From the NCBI GenBank assembly GCA_913058255.1, contig CAJXQU010000009.1, positions 1 to 64,000 on the forward strand: a stretch of DNA of 64,000 nucleotides, written 5' to 3'. The DNA is from an uncultured Pseudomonadota bacterium (lineage in GTDB: Bacteria; Pseudomonadota; Gammaproteobacteria; CAJXQU01). A program made the translations under genes and the position numbers. This document shows, in pieces, positions 24,693 through 38,075 of this stretch. A model generated the notes under the pieces. The model did not search any database. It saw only the letters and a program-made list of their open reading frames with translations, and was not told where the DNA came from. Each line of letters begins with the position of its first letter. The first letter of the stretch is position 1.

Positions 24693-26360
24693 TTAGTCCA
24701 ACTTCTCCAAACAAATAATTTTATCCATCCGTTCTAGTCCTATTTTTCTATGAGTGATCATCAAAATGCTGATGTCGGGATTATCGTCAAAAATAGCATT
24801 CAGCATTTTTTTCTCAGTGATGGTATCTAGTCCTTCTCCCGGCTCGTCTAGGATTAGGATGGGTGTGTTTTTGAGTAAGGCTCTGGCGGTGGCTATACGG
24901 CGTGATTGGCCGCCTGAGAGTTTAAGGCCTGCTTCGCCGATCCATGTGTCATATCCCTGGGGCTGGCTGATGATGAAGTCGTGTATTTGTGCGGTTCGAC
25001 AGGCTTGCTCTATTTCATCATCATTCGCATTGTTATTCGCTAATAGTAAGTTCCTTTTGATTGTGCTGTTAAATAGTAGGGTTTGTTGACTGACGACGCT
25101 GAAATATTGACGACTGTCGTCACTGTGGAAATGTTCGAGAGAGTGGCCGCCGAGTGTTATTTCTCCGCTTGTTATTGGCCAGAGTCTTAGTAGTAAATGC
25201 ATAACGCTGGTTTTGCCGGCGCCACTTTCACCGATGATAGCTAACTTGTTACCTTGAGGAAGTTTAAAGTTGAGCGAACTGAGAACATTCCCTTGCTTTT
25301 CATCGTAGTGAAAGCTGACTTGCTTAAACTCGATATCAAAATTTTCTGGTTTAGGTGAGGCAGTTTTAGGTTCTTTGATCAGTGGTTTTTTGTCGACGAT
25401 TTCAAAAATACGTTTGGCTGATTTCAATGTTTCAGGCAATAATTGCAGTGCTAAGGGCAGGGGAGCAATGGCCTCGAAACTCGCGAGTGCAAATAGCGCC
25501 AACATAGGGATGTTTGCAGCGGAAATTTGTTGTTCTTTAAGTAGTGGGATGCTCAGAAGCAGCATGCTCCACATTGCTAGGTTTGCGCAGAACAACATGG
25601 CTGCCTGGGAGATACCGTATAAACTGGCTTGTTTTTCCTGATCCTGTAACAGGTCCTCAGTTAATTGGGATATTTTGCCCGCTTGTGTGTCTGCAGCTCC
25701 GTAGATCAGCAGTTCCCCCATACCTTGTACGCTGTCTGAGGTGGTTACTCGTAGATCGCTTTTGCATGTGATCAATCGTTCACCACTGTGTTTGGCTTGT
25801 CTGTTGATCAGAATAGGGACTAACACACCGGCAATAAATAATAGTGACATTTCTACAAGTAAAAGTATGTCGTTGTATTGGTGCAGGAATAAGGCAAAGA
25901 ACACACATGCGATGATGGCGACGATAATCGGCGCTAGGATCCGTAAATAGAAATTTTCGAGGTGATCAATATCAGCTCTAATTCGGCTAAGAAGATCGCC
26001 GCTGTGATAGTGCTGTAAAACAGCTGGGGCTAGTGGTTCTAAGTGTTGATAAAACCAGACTCGTAGGGACGCCAGTAATCTAAATGTGGCCTCGTGAGTG
26101 ACTAACCTTTCAGCATAACGTCCCGCCGTGCGTGTTATGGCAAAACCTCGAATAGCAGCGGCTGGTGTAAAGTAGTTCACCTCTGTCGTGCCGGCGGCTC
26201 CGGCAATTGCCATCATAGTAATAAACCAACCTGCTAATGCAAGTAGACTGACATTGGCCAGAATCGTCATTAATGACAAGCACACTCCTAACAGCATCCA
26301 TGCCCAATAGGGTCGAAACAACTTCAGAAGTCTGCATAATATATTTATGTTATTTATCAT
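24693..26360 (-). CDS. cydC: CydC, heterodimeric ABC exporter of glutathione/cysteine
   Basis: 555 residues: six-helix transmembrane domain (about 1-310), then ATPase with Walker A IGESGAGKTS, signature LKLSGGQSRR and Walker B ILILDEPGEG. With CydD it exports reducing thiols to the periplasm, needed to assemble cytochrome bd. The start overlaps the cydD stop in ATGA, so the two are translationally coupled. It is the last gene of cydABX-DC; no clear terminator was seen downstream. Confidence 0.92.
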   Translation of the reverse strand: MINNINILCRLLKLFRPYWAWMLLGVCLSLMTILANVSLLALAGWFITMMAIAGAAGTTEVNYFTPAAAIRGFAITRTAGRYAERLVTHEATFRLLASLRVWFYQHLEPLAPAVLQHYHSGDLLSRIRADIDHLENFYLRILAPIIVAIIACVFFALFLHQYNDILLLVEMSLLFIAGVLVPILINRQAKHSGERLITCKSDLRVTTSDSVQGMGELLIYGAADTQAGKISQLTEDLLQDQEKQASLYGISQAAMLFCANLAMWSMLLLSIPLLKEQQISAANIPMLALFALASFEAIAPLPLALQLLPETLKSAKRIFEIVDKKPLIKEPKTASPKPENFDIEFKQVSFHYDEKQGNVLSSLNFKLPQGNKLAIIGESGAGKTSVMHLLLRLWPITSGEITLGGHSLEHFHSDDSRQYFSVVSQQTLLFNSTIKRNLLLANNNANDDEIEQACRTAQIHDFIISQPQGYDTWIGEAGLKLSGGQSRRIATARALLKNTPILILDEPGEGLDTITEKKMLNAIFDDNPDISILMITHRKIGLERMDKIICLEKLD

Positions 26361-28096
26361 AATGATGACTGATAAATATCATGTGAAATATCACTATAAA
26401 GTCCCGGTTCTTCAAGTAGTTCCTTATGTGTGCCTGTTTGTGTTACTTGACCTTTATCCATCACCAAAATTTGATCGGCTTTCTCTACGGTTTTTAGTCG
26501 GTGAGCGATCATAATAAGAGTTTTATTTTGACCAAGCTGGTCTAAGCTTTGTTGGATCAACTGCTCACTTTCAGCATCTAAATTTGCCGTCGCTTCGTCT
26601 AATAGGATAATCGGTGCATCTTTTAGGAAAGCGCGGGCTAGGGCAATGCGTTGTATTTGTCCGCCTGATAGGCCTTGACCTCGCTCGCCGATCAATGTGT
26701 TATAGGCTTCAGGCAGGTTTTGAATGTATTGATCAATATGTGCGAGCTTCGCTGCTGTTCTGATTTTTTCTTCACTCGCTTCAGGCATGCCTAAAGCAAT
26801 GTTTTCTCGAATACTACCGTGAAATAAATAGGGGTTCTGTGGTACCCAAGCAATATGTTTTCGCCAGTCTTCTAATTTGAGCTGGTTGAGGTTGTGATCA
26901 TTTATTTTGATCTCACCACTGGTGGGAGAGATGAAGCCAGCTAACAGTCTGATGATGGTCGTTTTACCAGCGCCACTCTTGCCGACTAGCGCGGTTCGGC
27001 TTCCTGCTGGGATAGATAGCTTGAGAGGCTGTAAGGCTATGCCTCGATTATCATAGGCATAGCTGACCTGATCAAATTGAATATTTATCGGCTTGTTTGT
27101 GGCGATTAATGATTTGTCGTTATTAGCGAGAGCATGTGCAGGGATAGGTTTCGCGAGAATATCCAGCATTTTTTCAGCCGCACCGATGGCTTCCAGTCGG
27201 GCGTGATAATGTGTGCCCATATTACGTAGTGGTAAGTAGAACTCGGGAGCGAGTAATAGCGCAAAGAAGCCATAAAAGAAGTCTATTTCACCATAAAGTA
27301 GCCTGAAACCGACTAAGACAGCAACAATTGCAATACTAACACTGGCAAGAAATTCTAAAACTAGTGATGAAAGAAAGGCCACGCGTAATACTGACATGGT
27401 TGATTGTCGGTATTCTGTGGAGATCCGCCGGATCGTTTCAATTTCACGCTGGCTGGCGTTAAATATTTTTAAGGTGCTTAGCCCCTGAATCATATCTAAA
27501 AAATGAGCACTCATACGCGCCATTTCTCGCCACTGTTTCTTGTTTAGTCGCTCAGTGCCCTTACCGATCAAGATCATGAAAAATGGGATTAAGGGAGCCG
27601 TTACTAGCAGTACTAGTCCTGAGATCCAGTCGATAGGAAAGACAAATATCAAAATAGAAAGTGGAATCAAAACGACTAATGACATGGTTGGTAGGTAGCG
27701 TGCGTAATAACCTTCGAGTGCTTCAACGCCATCGATCAATGTGTTGATCAGTTCACCGCTTCTTTCACCATCCGTTGCGATGGGCCCGAGAGATAGAATA
27801 TGCTGGTGTAGTGTTTGGCGTAAGTTACGCTTTATTTCAGCGGCGGCCTTAAAGGCGATGATTTCAGCGGCCCAGCTGAGGATTGCACGCAGTGAAAAAA
27901 CTCCGAGCATGCTCAACAACCAAACGTATACATCATCCAATGCTGCTTTTTCAAAGATGACGGCATTGATTATATTGGCAAGTAGCCATGCTTGTAGGAT
28001 GAGTAAAAATCCAGCGCTGAGCCCCAAACCGATCGCGAGTGAAAGGTAGTGTCCGGTGAGGTATTTTTGTGACTTGAGAAAGTCAGATATGCTCAT
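26357..28096 (-). CDS. cydD: CydD, heterodimeric ABC exporter subunit
   Basis: 579 residues: transmembrane domain (about 1-325), then ATPase with Walker A VGKSGAGKTT, signature GLSGGQIQR and Walker B IILLDEATANLD followed by the switch His (IAHRL). It partners CydC. It begins 88 bp after cydX in the same direction, so it probably shares the cydABX transcript. In E. coli cydDC lies elsewhere from cydAB; the contiguous layout here ensures co-expression. Confidence 0.93.
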   Translation of the reverse strand: MSISDFLKSQKYLTGHYLSLAIGLGLSAGFLLILQAWLLANIINAVIFEKAALDDVYVWLLSMLGVFSLRAILSWAAEIIAFKAAAEIKRNLRQTLHQHILSLGPIATDGERSGELINTLIDGVEALEGYYARYLPTMSLVVLIPLSILIFVFPIDWISGLVLLVTAPLIPFFMILIGKGTERLNKKQWREMARMSAHFLDMIQGLSTLKIFNASQREIETIRRISTEYRQSTMSVLRVAFLSSLVLEFLASVSIAIVAVLVGFRLLYGEIDFFYGFFALLLAPEFYLPLRNMGTHYHARLEAIGAAEKMLDILAKPIPAHALANNDKSLIATNKPINIQFDQVSYAYDNRGIALQPLKLSIPAGSRTALVGKSGAGKTTIIRLLAGFISPTSGEIKINDHNLNQLKLEDWRKHIAWVPQNPYLFHGSIRENIALGMPEASEEKIRTAAKLAHIDQYIQNLPEAYNTLIGERGQGLSGGQIQRIALARAFLKDAPIILLDEATANLDAESEQLIQQSLDQLGQNKTLIMIAHRLKTVEKADQILVMDKGQVTQTGTHKELLEEPGLYSDISHDIYQSSL

Positions 28097-28184
28097 TGTG
28101 GCTCAGCTGTGCAGATTTAAGAATGAACGATGTGCTCCATACAATCGGGTAAACGATATTAAAAAATCAAGCATTCTTCAATGC

Positions 28185-28289
28185 TTACTCGTCTTCTTCT
28201 TCTAGCCCATTTAGCTCAAGCCACATGACATTAATGATGCCGAATGCACAGGCCAGTAAAACTCCAAGTATCCATGCAAAATACCACAT
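28185..28289 (-). CDS. cydX: CydX, small subunit of cytochrome bd oxidase
   Basis: A 34-residue protein too short for the ORF track. It begins MWYFAWILGVLLACAFGIIN, a single membrane helix, and ends in an acidic tail (LEEEDE), exactly the CydX/YbgT pattern. GGAG lies seven bases before the ATG. It follows cydB by 26 bp and precedes cydD. CydX stabilises the haems of the CydAB core. Confidence 0.95.
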   Translation of the reverse strand: MWYFAWILGVLLACAFGIINVMWLELNGLEEEDE

Positions 28290-28315
28290 GTTAGTTCTCC
28301 TTAATGGGTTGGTAA

Positions 28316-29461
28316 TTAATAAAGTGAATGATCATTTTCGCGGATGCTCTCAGGCGTATGCTTGCCCCACATTATTTTATAACACCAGCTTGTATAAGCC
28401 AAAATGATCGGTATGAAAACAAGTGATACCCAAAACATGATGTGTAAGGTTAGCTCACTAGAAGTTGCATCCCATAAAGTTAGGCTATGGTTTGGGTTCA
28501 GGCTTGATGGAAAGATAAACGGGAATAGCGAGAAACCGGCGGTGAGAATGATGCCTATCAAACTCGTACATGATCCAAAAAATGCCAATATTGGTCTTGC
28601 AGCTTTACCCATGATCAGGGCTGTTATGGCGCCGGCAAAACCCAGTAGAGGCGCGATGATAAACAAGGGATAGTTTGAATAGTTTTGCAACCAGCTTGAT
28701 TCACCCACCGTGACGGTTTTATTAAGAGGGTTGCTAGCTGCGGAGAGATCCAATTGGCCTTGAATAGCATAGCCATCAATACCAAGCCAGATCCAGAGAC
28801 CTTCTATAGCGAATAAAGCGATCACGGCAGTAGCTGCTATTTTTAAAAACCTTCTAGAACGCTCATAAACCGCGCCATCTGATCGAAGCATTAGATAACT
28901 AGCACCTTGCATCATAAACATGGCGATCGCTAATAGGCCAGACAGGATGGCAAAAGGATGTAGCAATTGGAAAAAGCTGGTATCTAATGACGATCGTAGG
29001 AGTTCATCGAATTCAAAACCAATGCCTAGAAATAGATTTCCCATGCCGACACCGAAGATCAGTGGAGGTATGACGCCGGGAACAAATAAAGCCCAATCCC
29101 AGAAATTACGCCAGCTTTGGTTCGGTAGCTTAGATCGATAATCGAAACCAACAGGTCGTAGAAATAATGAGAATAATAAGATCAATAGTGCTAAATACAT
29201 TGCCGAGAATGCGGTCGCATAGAGAGTTGGCCATGCGGCGAATAGGGCGCCAGCAGCTAAGATTAACCAAACTTGATTCCCATCCCAATGCGGTGCTATC
29301 GCATTGATCGCAACCCGTCGCTCTTCATCTGTTTTACCAACAAACGGCAGGATCATGGCGACTCCCATATCAAAACCTTCTGTGAGTGCAAAACCGATCC
29401 ACAGGACACCAATGATGATCCACCAAGCCAGCCTTAAAAATTCGTAATCTAAAAATTCCAT
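28316..29461 (-). CDS. cydB: CydB, cytochrome bd ubiquinol oxidase subunit II
   Basis: 381 residues, all-helical membrane protein with the N-terminal block FLRLAWWIIIGVLWIGFALTEGFDMGV typical of CydB. The tracked ORF starts at 29566, but that extension overlaps the end of cydA and is not conserved; the ATG at 29461 has GGAGG ten bases upstream and follows the cydA stop by 13 bp. CydB pairs with CydA in the inner membrane. Confidence 0.95.
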   Translation of the reverse strand: MEFLDYEFLRLAWWIIIGVLWIGFALTEGFDMGVAMILPFVGKTDEERRVAINAIAPHWDGNQVWLILAAGALFAAWPTLYATAFSAMYLALLILLFSLFLRPVGFDYRSKLPNQSWRNFWDWALFVPGVIPPLIFGVGMGNLFLGIGFEFDELLRSSLDTSFFQLLHPFAILSGLLAIAMFMMQGASYLMLRSDGAVYERSRRFLKIAATAVIALFAIEGLWIWLGIDGYAIQGQLDLSAASNPLNKTVTVGESSWLQNYSNYPLFIIAPLLGFAGAITALIMGKAARPILAFFGSCTSLIGIILTAGFSLFPFIFPSSLNPNHSLTLWDATSSELTLHIMFWVSLVFIPIILAYTSWCYKIMWGKHTPESIRENDHSLY

Positions 29462-29474
29462 GACTAAAAACCTC

Positions 29475-31061
29475 CTACAGTAAGTTGTTATTTGTGTTGG
29501 TGCTGCTCGCAGCGGTTTCAAAATGATAACGACCAGTATGTAAAGAACTTGGCCCCTGGCGAGCAAACTTGAGCATTAGGAACACTTCTACAACGAGCAA
29601 GATGGAATAAAAGATGATAAATGCGATGAGGCTATTAAAAACGTCGCTGTATTCAAGACTGGAAACTGCCAGTGCAGTTGGCAAGATTTCACCGACAGCC
29701 CAAGGCTGACGACCAAATTCTGCAACGAACCAACCACACTCAATGGCAATCCACGGTAATGGCAGGCTTAGGAAACATAACCAAAGTAGCCATCGTTTAT
29801 GAAAAGAGCTGCGTTTGGCCGTGAAATAGAAAGCCAATAAAAAGACAAATAACATGGCAACACCCGCACCGACCATGGCACGAAAAGCAAAAAATAATGG
29901 AGCAACTTTCGGAATACTGTTTTTCGCAGCCAGTTTGATCTGCTCTTCTGTCGCATCAACGACATCTTCGGTGTATTGCTTGAGTAATAAACCGTAACCA
30001 AAGTCTTGGCTTAGTTCTGTTTTAAAAGTTAATTTTTCGGCTGCGGAAGCATTACCGCTGCGTATCTTTTCAAATGCAGCGTAGGCCAACATGCCATTTC
30101 TGATCCGATCTTCGTTTTCCACAATAATATCTTTTAGGCCTTTTACTTCTTCAGTGAATGAGCGGGTGGCAATAATTCCCATTACATAAGGTACTTTTAG
30201 CGCATAATGCGTTTCTTGTGCTTCTTGATCAGGAATACCAAACACTGTAAAGGCGGCTGGAGCTTCTTCGGTTTCCCATTCTGCTTCAAAAGCGGCTAGT
30301 TTGTATTCTTGCAAAGCACCAGCTTCGTAACCACTCTCATCGCCGAGTAATAACACTGAGAAAATAGAGGCTGTTCCAAAACCTGCCGCGACAGCAAATG
30401 AGCGTTTAGCAAAACCGATGTCACGGCCTTTAAGCAGATACCAAGCGCTAATACTTAAGATGAACATTGAACCAGCTACATAACCACTGGCGACGGTGTG
30501 AATGAATTTAACTTGAGCGACAGGGTTGAGAAGGATCTCTGTAAAGCTGACCATTTCCATACGCATAGTTTCGATATTAAACTCAGCACCTACTGGATTC
30601 TGCATCCAACCATTCGCTATAAGGATCCATAAAGCAGAGAGGTTTGTACCCAAAGCCATCAACCAGGTGACGGTAAGGTGTTGGACTTTAGTCATTCGAG
30701 CCCAGCCGAAGAAAAACATCCCCACGAAAGTAGATTCTAAAAAGAATGCCATCAATCCTTCGATCGCGAGAGGAGCCCCGAAAATATCTCCAACGTAATG
30801 TGAGTAGTATGACCAATTGGTGCCGAATGAGAATTCCATCGTCAATCCAGTGGCTACACCTAAGGCAAAATTGATCCCAAACAGCTTGCCCCAAAACTGA
30901 ACCATGTCTTTATAGACTTGCCGGCCCGTCATGACATAGACCGATTCCATGATCGCGAGCAAGAAGGTCATTCCTATTGTTAAAGGAACAAACAAGAAAT
31001 GATACAAAGCTACAACAGCAAATTGTAAGCGCGAAATATCAACTACTTCTTCAGGGATCAT
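29475..31061 (-). CDS. cydA: CydA, cytochrome bd ubiquinol oxidase subunit I
   Basis: 528 residues. The haem b595 ligand His lies in VALYHFLFVPLTIG, the GRQP motif is intact (FGRQPWAVGE), and a long periplasmic Q-loop (about 255-385) marks the L-subfamily found in enterobacteria. It oxidises quinol and reduces oxygen to water with high affinity, supporting growth at low oxygen. It is the first gene of cydABX-DC. Two WGTTAATTAW boxes lie about 370-400 bp upstream, which would fit ArcA-type redox control. Confidence 0.96.
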   Translation of the reverse strand: MIPEEVVDISRLQFAVVALYHFLFVPLTIGMTFLLAIMESVYVMTGRQVYKDMVQFWGKLFGINFALGVATGLTMEFSFGTNWSYYSHYVGDIFGAPLAIEGLMAFFLESTFVGMFFFGWARMTKVQHLTVTWLMALGTNLSALWILIANGWMQNPVGAEFNIETMRMEMVSFTEILLNPVAQVKFIHTVASGYVAGSMFILSISAWYLLKGRDIGFAKRSFAVAAGFGTASIFSVLLLGDESGYEAGALQEYKLAAFEAEWETEEAPAAFTVFGIPDQEAQETHYALKVPYVMGIIATRSFTEEVKGLKDIIVENEDRIRNGMLAYAAFEKIRSGNASAAEKLTFKTELSQDFGYGLLLKQYTEDVVDATEEQIKLAAKNSIPKVAPLFFAFRAMVGAGVAMLFVFLLAFYFTAKRSSFHKRWLLWLCFLSLPLPWIAIECGWFVAEFGRQPWAVGEILPTALAVSSLEYSDVFNSLIAFIIFYSILLVVEVFLMLKFARQGPSSLHTGRYHFETAASSTNTNNNLL

Positions 31062-31727: not shown

Positions 31728-33329
31728 ATGTCAATTAAACCTCGTAATAAAAGTATAGTTTCTTTAAGCGCAATGGGGCTGTTAGCTTTAGGTTCAACGC
31801 TAGCACATGCGGATGAAGTTTCATCTCAGTTAATCAACATACAAGCACCGATAGCCACCAGTATTGGTATGGCAACAGGATCTGCTGCAGTAGCAACTGC
31901 TCCAATAGCAGGCGCAGCGGCTGCAGGAATGCAAACCGATCTTCTGCCTCCTAACGCGACTCCTGGTCAGTGTTATGCTCGTATTTGGGTTCCACCAAAG
32001 TTTCAAACTGTAACTGAAACAGTTGAGACTAAACCAACGGGTGAGCGCCTAGAAGTTATTCCAGCAAAATTTGAAACTGTTACTGAAAGAATTCTTGTTA
32101 AAGAGGCTTCAGAAAAGCTAGTGACAATTCCTGCTACTTATGGAACAACTTCAGAGAAAATCCTTGTTAAAGATTCTTCTCTTCATTGGCATTATGGCCG
32201 TAACGGTGTTCAATCAGCTAAACATTCAAAAACTCAACATCCAGATGCTGCGTTCTTGAACTATGCTCGTTCTTTGGGTATGCCTGATAATGTTCAGCCT
32301 GGTCAATGTTATGCTGAGTACACACAACCAGAAAAATTCGAAACAGTTACAGAAAGAATGGTTAAGTCTGAAGCGTCTCAAAAAATCGATATCGTTCCAG
32401 CTACTTACTCTACTGTAGAAGAAAGAGTCTTGGTTAGTGAAGCTTCAGAGAAACTAATTACAGTTCCAGCTACTTATGGAACAGTGACAGAAAAAGTTCT
32501 AGTTAAGCCTGCATTCACTACTTGGAAAGTATCTGAGTGTTCTGGTGGTGCTTGTCAAACGGGTACGGTTCCAAATCGTGTATCTGGTTCTGTTGATCGA
32601 ATCGATCAATCGACTGGTGAAATCATGTGTTTGATTGAAGTTCCTGCGCAATACAAAACAATTACTAAACGTGTTTTGAAAACGCCAGCAACGACTAAAA
32701 CAGTTTCAACTCCAGCTCAATATAAAGTACAAAAAGTACGTAAGCTTGCTACTTCAGCTTCAGAGCGTGTGATTGATATTCCTGCGACTTACCAAACTGT
32801 TTCTAAGACAGTTAAGTCTGCAGATCCTGTAACTTCTTGGCACCTACATGGTTCAGCTAGCACTAAAAATGCTGGTCTAGCGACTGGTAATGCACTTTGC
32901 TTGACTGAAAAGCCAGCTGCTTACAAAACTGTGTCTAAGCGTGTTGTGAAAACAGCTGCAGCGACGAAGACGATTGCTATTCCTTCGGAATATAAAACTG
33001 TTCAAGTACGTAAAATGGTTACTCCACCACAGGAACGTCGCATCGAAATTCCTGCTGAGTTCGGTAAAGTGACTAAAACTGAAAGAATCAGTGAAGGTAA
33101 TATGGAATGGAAACCTGTTCTTTGCCAAGCGAATATGACTTCTGCTAAGGTTCAAGATATTCAGCGAGCTTTGAAAGCAAAAGGTAGTTATCACGGGCCA
33201 ATTGATGGTGTTGTGGGTTCACAAACTATTCGTGCATTTCAGAAGTATCAAAAAGCTAAAGGTTTAACTCCTACTCGATTCCTCACTATTGAGACAGTCA
33301 AGTCATTAGGCGTTAATCCTACGCACTAA
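31728..33329 (+). CDS. Secreted four-module repeat protein with peptidoglycan-binding C terminus
   Basis: 533 residues from the ATG at 31728, chosen over the tracked 31680 because GGAGGGGG lies directly upstream and a clean signal peptide follows (about 1-28, THE LAHA cleavage region). After an Ala-rich linker come four modules, Cys82-Trp154, Cys194-Trp266, Cys301-Trp371 and Cys391-Trp461. Each holds three copies of a roughly 23-residue unit with the pattern P-A-x-Y/F-x-T-V, for example IPATYGTVTEK-like segments. The C terminus (about 467-527) is a PG_binding_1 domain (QDIQRALKAKGSYHGPIDG). The repeats are not a family I can name. A perfect terminator follows, so it is probably monocistronic. 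Likely a periplasmic or surface scaffold tied to peptidoglycan (inference). Confidence 0.85.
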   Translation: MSIKPRNKSIVSLSAMGLLALGSTLAHADEVSSQLINIQAPIATSIGMATGSAAVATAPIAGAAAAGMQTDLLPPNATPGQCYARIWVPPKFQTVTETVETKPTGERLEVIPAKFETVTERILVKEASEKLVTIPATYGTTSEKILVKDSSLHWHYGRNGVQSAKHSKTQHPDAAFLNYARSLGMPDNVQPGQCYAEYTQPEKFETVTERMVKSEASQKIDIVPATYSTVEERVLVSEASEKLITVPATYGTVTEKVLVKPAFTTWKVSECSGGACQTGTVPNRVSGSVDRIDQSTGEIMCLIEVPAQYKTITKRVLKTPATTKTVSTPAQYKVQKVRKLATSASERVIDIPATYQTVSKTVKSADPVTSWHLHGSASTKNAGLATGNALCLTEKPAAYKTVSKRVVKTAAATKTIAIPSEYKTVQVRKMVTPPQERRIEIPAEFGKVTKTERISEGNMEWKPVLCQANMTSAKVQDIQRALKAKGSYHGPIDGVVGSQTIRAFQKYQKAKGLTPTRFLTIETVKSLGVNPTH

Positions 33330-33355: not shown

Positions 33356-33385
33356 GAAGGGCCGCTTATGCGGCCCTTCTTTTTT
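33356..33385 (+). terminator. Intrinsic terminator of the repeat-protein gene
   Basis: A perfect 10-bp GC-rich stem (GAAGGGCCGC / GCGGCCCTTC, loop TTAT) followed by six Ts. Confidence 0.95.
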
Positions 33386-33513: not shown

Positions 33514-33948
33514 ATGAAAATGTATTATCTTGTAGCGCTTATGTTTTTGGGACAATTAGCCATGTTCTCAACAGCTCAATCACAAGAACAAAGGTTTCCT
33601 AAACAAACCAAAGATATTGTTTGGATCGAGAAAAATGCACAAGGTGAGTCTATCGTCCATTTGTATGTGTATTGGTCTTTGACTTGTCCACATTGTGAAA
33701 AATCATTACCTTATATAAAAAAATTAGCCAAAACTAACCCTTGGTTAAAATTGCACCTTAAGGAAGTTTCCAAAAACCAAAAGCATTTAATCTCATTATA
33801 TAAAATGGCTGAGACATTAGACGAACCAAACTCAGGTGAAGTACCAGCATTTTTCTTTTGTGGAATAATGTATACGGGTTACGGAGAAAATGAGACGACT
33901 GGAACCTGGATTAAAGACACCTTGAAAGAATGTCACGCACAAAAGTAG
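33514..33948 (+). CDS. Exported thioredoxin-fold protein (CPHC)
   Basis: 144 residues with a Sec signal (about 1-23, STAQS). The thioredoxin-like active site is LTCPHCEKSLPY, preceded by the strand HLYVYWS. A cis-Pro-type loop is readable as GEVPAFFFCG, with a further Cys there and one near the end. It is probably a periplasmic thiol-disulfide protein. AGGATG precedes the start. It lies 55 bp before a DUF2059 gene, and about 180 bp after the Cys-bearing repeat protein; a link to the latter is only speculation. Confidence 0.75.
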   Translation: MKMYYLVALMFLGQLAMFSTAQSQEQRFPKQTKDIVWIEKNAQGESIVHLYVYWSLTCPHCEKSLPYIKKLAKTNPWLKLHLKEVSKNQKHLISLYKMAETLDEPNSGEVPAFFFCGIMYTGYGENETTGTWIKDTLKECHAQK

Positions 33949-34003
33949 TGAGAGCGTATTTTATATTTTTAAATATTAAAGAAATATTTGAAGGAAGAGA
34001 TTG

Positions 34004-34519
34004 ATGAAAAAGTCCATTTTAGTGTTAACAATGATATTTCTTTGTAGTATTAAACCCATATTGGCTGAAGAGGTACCATTCGAAAAGAAAGCGCTGATTG
34101 ATCAACTGTTGACGCAGACAGGACAGACAACTATTTCTGTAAGTAAGCAGTTTTCAACTATCTTTATTCAACAAATGACGATGCTGTTAAGACAATCACA
34201 GCCAGATATTGATCCGAAAGCATATGACTATATGAGCGAAGAAGTCATCAGCATTTTTGATGATGAAATTAAGATAAATGGTGGTTTTTTTGATTTAATT
34301 TATCCAATTTATAATAAACATTTTTCGAATCAAGAGCTTGAGGAAATTATCGCATTCAATAATACGGCCCTAGGTAAGAAAATGAACAAGGTACTTCCCC
34401 AAATAACACAAGAAGCGATGCTTGCTGGACAAGAGTTCGGGAAGTCTTTAGGTCCAAAAATAAAGGGGAGAGTTTTGGCTCGATTTGAACAAGAAGGTAT
34501 TGAGATAAAAAAGAAATAA
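34004..34519 (+). CDS. DUF2059-family exported protein
   Basis: 171 residues from ATG 34004 (the tracked TTG at 34001 is one codon earlier; GGAAGAG precedes both). Signal peptide about 1-20 (KPILA). The rest is helical with the DUF2059 core YNKHFSNQELEEIIAFNNTALGKKMNKVLPQ. The family's role is unknown; members are periplasmic. It probably shares a transcript with the thioredoxin-fold gene upstream. Confidence 0.8.
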   Translation: MKKSILVLTMIFLCSIKPILAEEVPFEKKALIDQLLTQTGQTTISVSKQFSTIFIQQMTMLLRQSQPDIDPKAYDYMSEEVISIFDDEIKINGGFFDLIYPIYNKHFSNQELEEIIAFNNTALGKKMNKVLPQITQEAMLAGQEFGKSLGPKIKGRVLARFEQEGIEIKKK

Positions 34520-35978: not shown

Positions 35979-36450
35979 TGTAATGGTCAACTAAACTTGG
36001 AGACTTGTTTAGGCGCCTTTCAGTAATTTCCTTTCATATTCCACAGGTGAAATATTTCATAATTTATAATGTCGTCGTTTTTGATTATAAAACGGTTCAA
36101 TATAATCAATAATATCCGCAATAGCCTGGCTTCTAATTTGATAACGACGATAGTTCACTTGCTCTGATTTCAGGCTTCTAAAAAAGCGTTCGGTCGCCGC
36201 ATTATCCAGGCAATTTCCAGCGCGACTCATGCTGGATGTTAAGCCATGCTCTTTCAGCGCATGTTGAAAGGCTTCGCTCGTATATTGAACACCCTGATCA
36301 CTGTGAAAACACACACGGTCTTCCGGCTGACGTTTATGGACAGCCAGGCGTAATGCACGTGTCGTGAGTTCGCTATTGGGTTTGTCCGAGAAGGCCCAGC
36401 TGATCACTTTACGTGAACACAAATCCATTAGACCAGAACAGACATACAAG
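35979..36450 (-). mobile_element. IS3-family remnant (3' end only)
   Basis: One terminal repeat (TGTAATGGTCAAC, similar to the ends of the IS at 8063) followed inward by the 3' third of orfB. orfA and the rest of orfB are missing; similarity stops at about 36450, where truncated ardA sequence begins. The junction looks like a deletion or recombination point. Confidence 0.8.
36009..36449 (-). pseudogene. IS3-family transposase OrfB fragment
   Basis: The C-terminal part of the DDE domain: VCSGLMDLCSRKVISWAFSDK, FHSDQGVQYTS, and the Glu region ATERFFRSLKSEQ. An in-frame TGA at 36057 interrupts the end (HYKL*NISPVEYERKLL), and the 5' two-thirds are gone. Inactive. Confidence 0.85.
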
Positions 36451-36464
36451 ACCAGATTAATTCT

Positions 36465-36857
36465 ATGTTGGTATCAAGCCCTGAAGAGGATGCAGAAGAA
36501 TATGCAATTCATGATTACGAGGGGTTTGGCAGTTACAGCTTGGGAGAGTATGAAGGGATAGACAGTGCGCAGGAGGTTGCTTGTTTTATCGAGGAGCACG
36601 GCGAGCTAGGCGCGGAGTTACTTGGTTATTACAGCGATATCGACGAGGCACGAAAAGCCGTAGACGAAAGTTATTGTGGGTGTCATACCAGTGTGGCGGA
36701 TTATGCCCAAGAGCTAACCGAGGACACCGGCAATATTCCAAGCCACTTAGAAATGTATATCGACTATGAGCGCATGGGGCGTGATATGGAGCTAGGCGGC
36801 GACATCTTTACAATTGAAACAGGCTATCAGGAAGTGCATATATTTTGGAGCCATTAA
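36465..36857 (+). pseudogene. ardA: ArdA antirestriction protein, 5'-truncated
   Basis: The 130 residues match ArdA from just before the middle of its first domain to the end: DAEEYAIHDYEGFGSY, DESYCGCHTSVADYAQEL, MYIDYERMGRDMEL and a final VHIFW. ArdA mimics B-form DNA and blocks type I restriction enzymes. About 40-45 N-terminal residues are missing, replaced by the IS3 remnant, and no ribosome site precedes the ATG. The acidic composition is preserved. It marks a plasmid or conjugative-element origin for this region. Confidence 0.8.
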
Positions 36858-36864
36858 AAAAGTG

Positions 36865-36889
36865 AAGCCCCTGCTACGGTGGGGGCTTT
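36865..36889 (+). terminator. Hairpin after ardA
   Basis: AAGCCCC / GGGGCTT stem followed by TAATC. GC-rich stem with a short T stretch; a plausible ardA terminator. Confidence 0.55.
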
Positions 36890-36900
36890 AATCTACCCCG

Positions 36901-36986
36901 CTTTTGGGGCTCAGCGGCCTATCGGCCTTAATTGCTCATACTTCGCTTGTATTGTCTCGTGCCCGAGCCAAACTGAGCCCCAAAAG
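36901..36986. repeat. 86-bp inverted-repeat element, structured
   Basis: Perfect 14-bp arms CTTTTGGGGCTCAG (36901) and CTGAGCCCCAAAAG (36973) enclose 58 bp that contains a second small hairpin (GGCC TATC GGCC). Its size resembles a recombination or transfer site, but it lacks the conserved integron attC end motifs I would expect. Identity unknown. Confidence 0.6.
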
Positions 36987-37068
36987 TTTAAATAATGCTG
37001 GCCTTGGGCAGTGTAAGTACCCAAAGACGCTATTTATTAAACCTTCCAGTTTGTATTTTGATTTATTT

Positions 37069-37161
37069 ACGGCGTTTATCGCCGTGAAAAATAATATTAG
37101 TAAACTTTTTCGGTTTGTGTTAGTTTGATATTTATAAATTATACGGCGTTTTACGCCGTAT
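37069..37161. promoter_or_regulatory. Paired inverted-repeat operators of the abiE operon
   Basis: Two related palindromes, ACGGCG-TTTAT-CGCCGT (37069-37085) and ATACGGCG-TTTTA-CGCCGTAT (37141-37161), are centred about 74 bp apart and end about 70 bp before the antitoxin gene. Autoregulated abiE operons are known to use two inverted repeats bound cooperatively by AbiEi, which fits this arrangement. Confidence 0.75.
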
Positions 37162-37229
37162 ATATCGGTAGTGATAAACTATTGAGCGATTTTAGCAGGC
37201 TTAACGGCCAAGAATACTAAGAAAGGTAA

Positions 37230-38075
37230 GTGCGCTTGGTTAATAGCATGACTTCAAAGGGTGATGGTGTAAAAGGGACTTATAAGCAGTCACTTAAAGC
37301 GCTTCTGCCTTATGGCATGTTGGCCACGAAGAAGTGGCTAGCAGAACAAGGCTTGAGCGCCCATGCCATAGACAATGCGGTTAAAACTGAAACCTTGTTG
37401 CTGCTGGCAACGGGGGTATACAGCCAGTATTCCCGCTCTGTGAGTTGGGAAGGTGTGGTTGCCTCTATGCAGCGTATGGACAAGGTCGAGGGTACTGATG
37501 TGCCGCCTGCCGTGGTAGGTGGGCTATCAGCGCTTTCTTTATCTGGTTTGTCGCAGTATCTGTCATTAGGCAATCAGCCGCATATCCACCTATACGCGGT
37601 AGGTAAGCTACCAACATGGTTAGTGCGTTTGTCGCTGCCTGTAGAGTTTGAAGGACACAGTACAAGCAAGCTATGGCCTGAAAGCCTTTTGATGGATAAG
37701 GTTTTCATCAAAGAGCATGAGTGGGGGGTGGAATTGCCTCCTGTGTATTTCTCATGCCCTGAGAAAGCCATATTGGAATTATTGATCGACTTGCCAGATA
37801 GAGTGACGTTTGAGCATGCCGATGAGTTAATGCAGGGGTTAGTGAACCTGTCGCCCAGAAAGCTCGATACACTTTTGAAAGCCTGTAAAAGCGTAAAGGC
37901 CAAGCGATTGTTTTTCTGGATGGCAAAGCGCCAAGCCTATCCTTGGTTTAGCAAACTAAACGTCAAGGATTATGACTTAGGCTCAGGTAAGCGCGTTGTG
38001 GCTAAAGGCGGAAAGCTGGATGCGGATTATTTAATCACCGTGCCGTCGCATATGGCATTGAACAGTGAAGATTAG
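37230..38075 (+). CDS. abiEi: AbiEi-type antitoxin, type IV toxin-antitoxin system
   Basis: 281 residues. An N-terminal winged-helix region (about 20-80; LLPYGMLATKKWLAEQGLS) and the AbiEi C-terminal domain (CPEKAILELLIDLPDRVTFEHADELMQGL) are recognisable. The antitoxin binds its own promoter and neutralises the partner nucleotidyltransferase without forming a complex with it. The GTG at 37230 has AAAGG just before; the ATG at 37248 is an alternative start. It precedes the toxin gene by 17 bp. GC is visibly higher than in flanking genes, supporting horizontal origin. Confidence 0.88.
   Translation: MRLVNSMTSKGDGVKGTYKQSLKALLPYGMLATKKWLAEQGLSAHAIDNAVKTETLLLLATGVYSQYSRSVSWEGVVASMQRMDKVEGTDVPPAVVGGLSALSLSGLSQYLSLGNQPHIHLYAVGKLPTWLVRLSLPVEFEGHSTSKLWPESLLMDKVFIKEHEWGVELPPVYFSCPEKAILELLIDLPDRVTFEHADELMQGLVNLSPRKLDTLLKACKSVKAKRLFFWMAKRQAYPWFSKLNVKDYDLGSGKRVVAKGGKLDADYLITVPSHMALNSED

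Follow-up and report, generated by a model that had tools for sequence, protein, structure and literature searches.

Short repeated β-units form the rods of the adenovirus fibre, a triple β-spiral, and of trimeric autotransporter stalks, and in both cases the number of units sets rod length; the shaft repeat of triple β-spiral fibres is short and the fibre is a homotrimer. Here we describe a protein, encoded within the window (the whole stretch of DNA analysed, 64,000 nucleotides), which shares with these systems a proposed rod of repeated β-units. It differs from them in that the rod would be made of two different arrays of one chain, running antiparallel in register; its unit is 23 residues long, and neither a sequence match nor a credible fold match links it to such shafts. 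With SleB and the lytic transglycosylases SltB2/SltB3, the protein has in common a C-terminal peptidoglycan-binding-like domain, but it lacks their catalytic domain, and its remainder is a repeat unrelated to those enzymes. HxsA (TIGR03979) matches only residues 454–529, the C-terminal peptidoglycan-binding part, with 41.4 bits against an equivalog cut-off of 121.65, and the protein has no His-Xaa-Ser repeat. The model of the Lpp/OprI alanine-zipper lipoproteins (NF040598) is matched by 4 of 18 two-module homologs of the protein, whereas the protein itself has no lipobox and no NF040598 match; to our knowledge, Lpp contains neither a β-repeat nor a PG_binding_1 domain. As detailed below, the protein is very probably an exported, peptidoglycan-anchored rod consisting of one long nested antiparallel β-hairpin.

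The gene and its surroundings

The open reading frame (positions 31728–33326, forward strand; stop codon 33327–33329) encodes 533 amino acids, and its ATG at 31728 follows the Shine-Dalgarno-like AGGAGGGGGG, as read from the sequence. Position 31971, from which the sequence-only reading had the protein start, is the codon of Cys82. Judging from its N terminus, the protein is exported by means of a signal peptide; this, together with a fifth conserved cysteine (Cys466) and two more in the loop between the second and third modules (Cys271 and Cys276), adds to what that reading described (Table 1). The gene is probably transcribed on its own, because a good ribosome-binding site precedes the reading frame and an intrinsic terminator follows it. 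No second copy was found in the source genome. Of two congeners, one encodes a 71% identical protein and the other yielded a weak match to the peptidoglycan-binding domain only. No conserved gene neighbourhood was detected across 29 loci, and the gene appears to stand alone, without conserved neighbours.

Table 1 Features of the gene and of the encoded protein (coordinates in the window; structural roles are proposals)
Feature	Coordinates	Strand	Basis or remark
Putative signal peptide, residues 1–28 (cleavage AHA/DEV, without lipobox)	31728..31811	+	Type judged by eye
Module N1 (N-type, proposed outer ribbon), Cys82–Trp154, three 23-aa units	31971..32189	+	Antiparallel with C2 (covariation)
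N1–N2 linker, residues 155–193, proposed mid-rod joint (upward strand)	32190..32306	+	Short helices predicted
Module N2 (N-type, proposed inner ribbon), Cys194–Trp266, three 23-aa units	32307..32525	+	Antiparallel with C1 (covariation)
Proposed tip loop N2–C1, residues 267–300	32526..32627	+	Cys271 and Cys276 (CSGGAC); conserved TGEIM before Cys301
Module C1 (C-type, proposed inner ribbon), Cys301–Trp371, three 23-aa units	32628..32840	+	Pairs with N2
C1–C2 linker, residues 372–390, proposed mid-rod joint (downward strand)	32841..32897	+	Linker lengths
Module C2 (C-type, proposed outer ribbon), Cys391–Trp461, three 23-aa units	32898..33110	+	Pairs with N1
Cys466, five residues after Trp461, proposed base partner of Cys82	33123..33125	+	Conservation
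PG_binding_1 domain, residues 472–526	33141..33305	+	Pfam E = 7.2e-9; SleB, SltB2 and SltB3 fold matches
Intrinsic terminator, GAAGGGCCGC TTAT GCGGCCCTTC TTTTTT	33356..33385	+	Read from sequence

Immediately downstream, positions 33514–33948 (forward strand) code for a small thioredoxin-like protein that is exported and contains a CPHC motif (Pfam Thioredoxin_9, E = 0.001, below the cut-off). This protein could have a part in disulfide formation; no such gene was seen beside the homolog in L021. An exported DUF2059 protein follows at 34001–34519 (forward strand; Pfam E = 1e-14). Upstream, on the reverse strand (24696–31061), lie genes that by eye resemble those for a cydDC-type ABC transporter and for cytochrome bd oxidase subunits. 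The region 36057–38075, which looks like mobile DNA, comprises a transposase-like fragment (IS3-type by eye), an ArdA-like antirestriction ORF (36465–36857) and a further ORF (37230–38075).

Two types of repeat module

The sequence-only reading had recognized four Cys-(3 × 23)-Trp modules, with Cys-to-Trp spacings of 72, 72, 70 and 70 residues and three repeat units in each, and this description holds: the four pairs are located as given in Table 1, and every module contains three 23-residue units of the form P-x-x-[YF]. Self-similarity of the protein at lag 23 reaches z = 10.5, compared to a maximum of 4.1 across all lags in 200 shuffles. The modules fall into two types, arranged in the order N1-N2-C1-C2. 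The first unit proline is found at Cys+7 in the N-type modules (CYARxxxP) and at Cys+5 in the C-type modules (CLxExP), which explains the spacing of 72 versus 70 residues. N-type modules are acidic and C-type modules basic, with mean net charges of −2.2 (N1), −2.8 (N2), +3.7 (C1) and +5.7 (C2) in 81 four-module proteins, and of −1.8 (N) and +5.9 (C) in 41 two-module proteins.

An apparently undescribed family with a PG_binding_1 domain

The C-terminal domain matches PG_binding_1 (PF01471) with 36.1 bits, above the curated cut-off of 23, and the same model is matched at E ≤ 0.01 by all 18 of 18 two-module homologs. Thus, the link to peptidoglycan that had been suggested from the sequence stands as far as a PG_binding_1 domain supports it, and no further. 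The repeat itself, which the sequence-only reading could not assign to a characterized family, is likewise without a match in Pfam, NCBIfam or the PDB: residues 82–461 produced only sub-cut-off noise against Pfam and NCBIfam, consistent matches of the homologs to these databases were to peptidoglycan-binding models only, and significant matches in a PDB sequence search were confined to the peptidoglycan-binding domain. Nor did we find a description of the family in the open-access literature. As far as could be tested, the family appears to be undescribed and is apparently unnamed.

Scans of genome collections yielded, after fetching, 156 distinct homologous proteins; the taxa represented include Gammaproteobacteria, Alphaproteobacteria (Aquisalinus), Mariprofundaceae, Desulfobacteraceae, Krumholzibacteriota, Gemmatimonadota and Lentisphaerae. 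Within the class of the source organism, 46 of 369 sampled genomes (about 12%) contain a match, and in one order the proportion is 45 of 48. Collections of phages, plasmids and viruses contained no homologs of the repeat, the plasmid matches being to the peptidoglycan-binding domain only. A homolog contains either two modules, one of each type, an architecture present in all of the taxa listed, or four modules, a form that was found in gammaproteobacterial or proteobacterial samples. Many homologs carry a lipobox-like cysteine and an N-terminal helix, both of which are absent from the window protein. In L233, L234, L235 and L236, the PG_binding-like domains are rich in extra cysteines (for example, CCKCGPNRNEC), possibly representing a metal- or disulfide-stabilized variant of this clade.

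AlphaFold2 models, built from alignments of 7 and 18 sequences, are all-β and show a regular alternation of 12- and 7-residue strands separated by 2-residue kinks, but at low confidence (pLDDT 67 and 69; pTM 0.29 and 0.41). A Foldseek search with these low-confidence models, and hence a weak test, gave a credible match for the peptidoglycan-binding domain only and no fold relative of the repeat, for which matches had rmsd values of about 20–60 Å and probabilities of at most 0.3. The lysenin pore, the phi29 collar and viral proteins were discarded as fold relatives for their huge rmsd, and a single match below 1e-3 in the viral library was not credited (rmsd 33 Å). The structural claim made here rests on covariation and unit counts, not on the AlphaFold2 models.

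The two arms nearly always match in unit number

For a module of n units, the distance from Cys to Trp is 23n + 3 in N modules and 23n + 1 in C modules. Unit numbers were taken from these lengths, given that profile-based counting ran modules together across linkers and overlooked degenerate units. Counted in this way, proteins of the family contain 2 (L048), 3 (L093, L233), 4 (the majority of two-module proteins), 6 (L017, L128), 7 (L027 and L028, each arm at most one residue off the length rule), 8 (L234; distances 187/185) or 10 (L235; 233/231) units per arm, and within each protein the two arms agree, from 2/2 to 10/10, with one intact exception. The complete four-module proteins that we saw have three units in every module, with occasional one-residue indels (for example, in L204), and the window protein, with 3/3/3/3 units, belongs with these paired-arm proteins by its equal arms and by the antiparallel covariation described below.

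Because strict length filters had been used in the collection of alignment rows, the 31 proteins that these excluded were examined individually for unequal arms. The exception, L058 (441 residues; 10/6 units), was the sole intact unequal-arm protein among them; it is distant, very basic, lacks the peptidoglycan-binding domain, has recently expanded and carries near-identical basic repeats. It is part of a tandem pair of distant relatives without this domain in genome G296, a 4/4 protein lying beside the 10/6 one. Two four-module copies in genome G844 (L138 and L139), with an in-frame TGA and an N2 module reduced by two units to one, look like decaying copies. In the 10/10 protein L235, two unit types alternate in both arms, with a period of two within the repeat: KTVT-type and YGxGS-type units in the N arm, and KTVT-type and YANVDT-type units in the C arm.

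A strict 23-residue period combined with a variable number of units is typical of solenoids, and one could suppose that each module is an independent small β-domain or β-solenoid, the equal counts reflecting nothing but shared ancestry. We consider this very unlikely. In a tree of the C-terminal region, the 3/3 protein L233 is sister to the 8/8 protein L234 (support 0.97), beside the 10/10 pair, indicating that both arms change together over short evolutionary distances; the deep branches of this tree are unreliable because the region is short. Furthermore, covariation within modules has no register comparable to that between the arms (MI z of at most 3.2 versus 7.5).

The arms covary in antiparallel register

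Since arms of a given unit number have a fixed length, they could be aligned without gaps. Mutual information with average-product correction (MI-APC) was averaged along each of 282 parallel and antiparallel registers. In the two-module proteins with 4+4 units (51 rows, Neff 37, three rows misaligned by one residue), inter-arm MI-APC is highest at the antiparallel register i+j=96 (z = 8.0), followed by 94, 97, 95 and 93. The best register outside 93–97 is a parallel one (3.1), and registers shifted by 23 score between −1.7 and 0.7. In 60 re-pairings of N and C arms, the maxima average 3.1, with a top value of 4.68. The peak at i+j=96 recurs in random halves of the data; the 41 clean rows alone give the same register (z = 7.5), at which covariation of opposite charges also peaks (z = 6.7). 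At this register, as derived from the AlphaFold2 strand boundaries and the unit consensus, each class of strand lies opposite its own kind, 12 residues against 12 and 7 against 7, and kinks lie across from kinks.

If the same ribbon were built with three units per arm, the register expected for four-module proteins would be 96−23=73. In 81 such proteins (Neff 51; Cys and Trp anchors imposed at row selection), an antiparallel peak was obtained for only two of the six module pairs, N1·C2 (MI 5.2, charge 4.7) and N2·C1 (MI 5.5, charge 4.6), both at i+j=73 and above the maxima of the respective nulls (3.5 and 3.8). The pairs N1·C1 and N2·C2 gave no signal at register 73 in the same 81 proteins (band means −0.2 and 0.1). 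The pairing of N1 with C2 and of N2 with C1 is a nested arrangement, that is, one long hairpin with a half-way joint. Therefore, a single module is not the folding unit, and the sequence-only picture of four equivalent, independently folding modules gives way to one of two arms of each type, N arms pairing with C arms. That reading's suggestion of a repetitive β-structure and a rod fares better, being in line with the 12/7 strand alternation in the low-confidence models and with the inter-module pairing.

The anchors imposed at row selection and the modest Neff values raise the question of whether the peaks could stem from sequence relatedness or row selection, and the shared lengths from the row filter. 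This explanation is extremely improbable: relatedness would lift all registers alike, whereas one of 282 stands out and the same register minus 23 emerges in the second set; charge and MI agree; and the proteins that the filter had excluded, 31 in number, were searched for unequal arms. Weaker parallel signals connect N1 with N2 (z = 5.1) and C1 with C2 (z = 3.1) and are not accounted for by a simple hairpin. Lateral stacking of two ribbons was considered and set aside, because the C1–C2 linker of 17–29 residues is too short to retrace an extended arm of 70 residues. The parallel signals may instead be residual similarity of paralogous modules, for which identity is 0.397 within the same protein versus 0.365. 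The N1–N2 linker measures 33–44 residues, and the lengths of the two linkers are correlated (rho 0.42), an effect driven by one clade.

Covariation of this kind is blind to whether paired arms belong to one chain or to two. In a dimer or fibre, the N arm of one chain could pair antiparallel with the C arm of the next, and the outcome might be a polymer or adhesive fibre, in which a free tip cysteine (C2-type Cys) could cross-link. Covariation and equal counts would fit such an assembly equally well, and the 4 of 18 matches to the Lpp/OprI model suggest oligomers in part of the family. Nevertheless, we regard two-chain pairing as unlikely, considering that the N-to-C loop is short and near-constant, as befits a hairpin turn (18–19 residues in most four-module homologs, 34–35 in the clade of the window protein, and often 19 in two-module proteins), and that the nested N1·C2 and N2·C1 pattern is what a single chain would make.

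A proposed nested hairpin rod and its cysteines

In the single-chain hairpin that we favour, the C-terminal PG_binding_1 domain would hold peptidoglycan, with both ends of the ribbon at this base. N1 and then N2 would lead away from the base, the N2–C1 loop would form the tip, and C1 and C2 would return, so that N1·C2 pairing would make up the base half and N2·C1 pairing the tip half, the N1–N2 and C1–C2 linkers facing each other at the half-way joint. Each unit would comprise one 12-residue and one 7-residue strand, split by P-A and E/P-A kinks. With long strands facing long ones and short strands facing short ones, both arms would need equal numbers of units. Taking 0.33 nm per residue, each ribbon would be no longer than about 24 nm and the whole rod no longer than about 48 nm, upper bounds that kinks and coiling would reduce. 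A two-stranded ribbon alone has little core, and oligomerization or lateral packing is therefore probably needed.

On this hairpin, the conserved cysteines would occupy base, mid-joint and tip. The equivalent of Cys466 is present in 81 of 81 four-module rows, its presence having been a requirement of the row filter. The two-module proteins tested keep both the first and the last cysteine (confirmed by eye in L051 and L117), including those in which the middle cysteine is replaced (L050, L051, L052, L117, L118 and L145). In the proposed hairpin, the first cysteine faces, at the base, the residue that precedes the last one by two positions, and the joint retention of these two upon loss of the middle cysteine matches the prediction of a first–last disulfide. 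Perhaps, then, Cys82 and Cys466 form an internal clasp beside the peptidoglycan-binding domain, as their conservation suggests. At the mid-joint, Cys194 would lie against Cys391, and Cys301 would be placed at the tip with Cys271 and Cys276 of this clade; an intermolecular role is possible for the tip cysteines only.

Discussion

In the lipidated relatives, the base of the ribbon would be tied also to the membrane, and attachment to both wall and membrane suggests a wall–membrane strut or spacer. Taken by itself, a role as a wall-tethered strut or rod of the envelope has, in our estimate, about an even chance of being correct, the main alternative being a surface rod or adhesin.

More tentatively, and with slightly less than even confidence, we suggest that the family represents a new fibrous fold, a modular hairpin of antiparallel ribbon in which each arm is a repeat array of its own. 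Units would be added to both arms together, and doubling would come from placing one hairpin within the tip of another, to give a length-tunable, wall-anchored rod in bacteria of several phyla. Wall-anchored repeat rods are already a known kind, and it is the paired repeat arms that would constitute a new fibrous fold if a structure confirms them. What had been an anonymous ‘peptidoglycan-binding domain protein’ thereby acquires a defined architecture, with a testable register, disulfide pairs and length per unit. Repeat number changing in step in two arrays that lie far apart in a single gene is an unusual constraint on evolution. With its span of 2 to 10 units, the family also offers a natural length series for work on the sizing of envelope rods.
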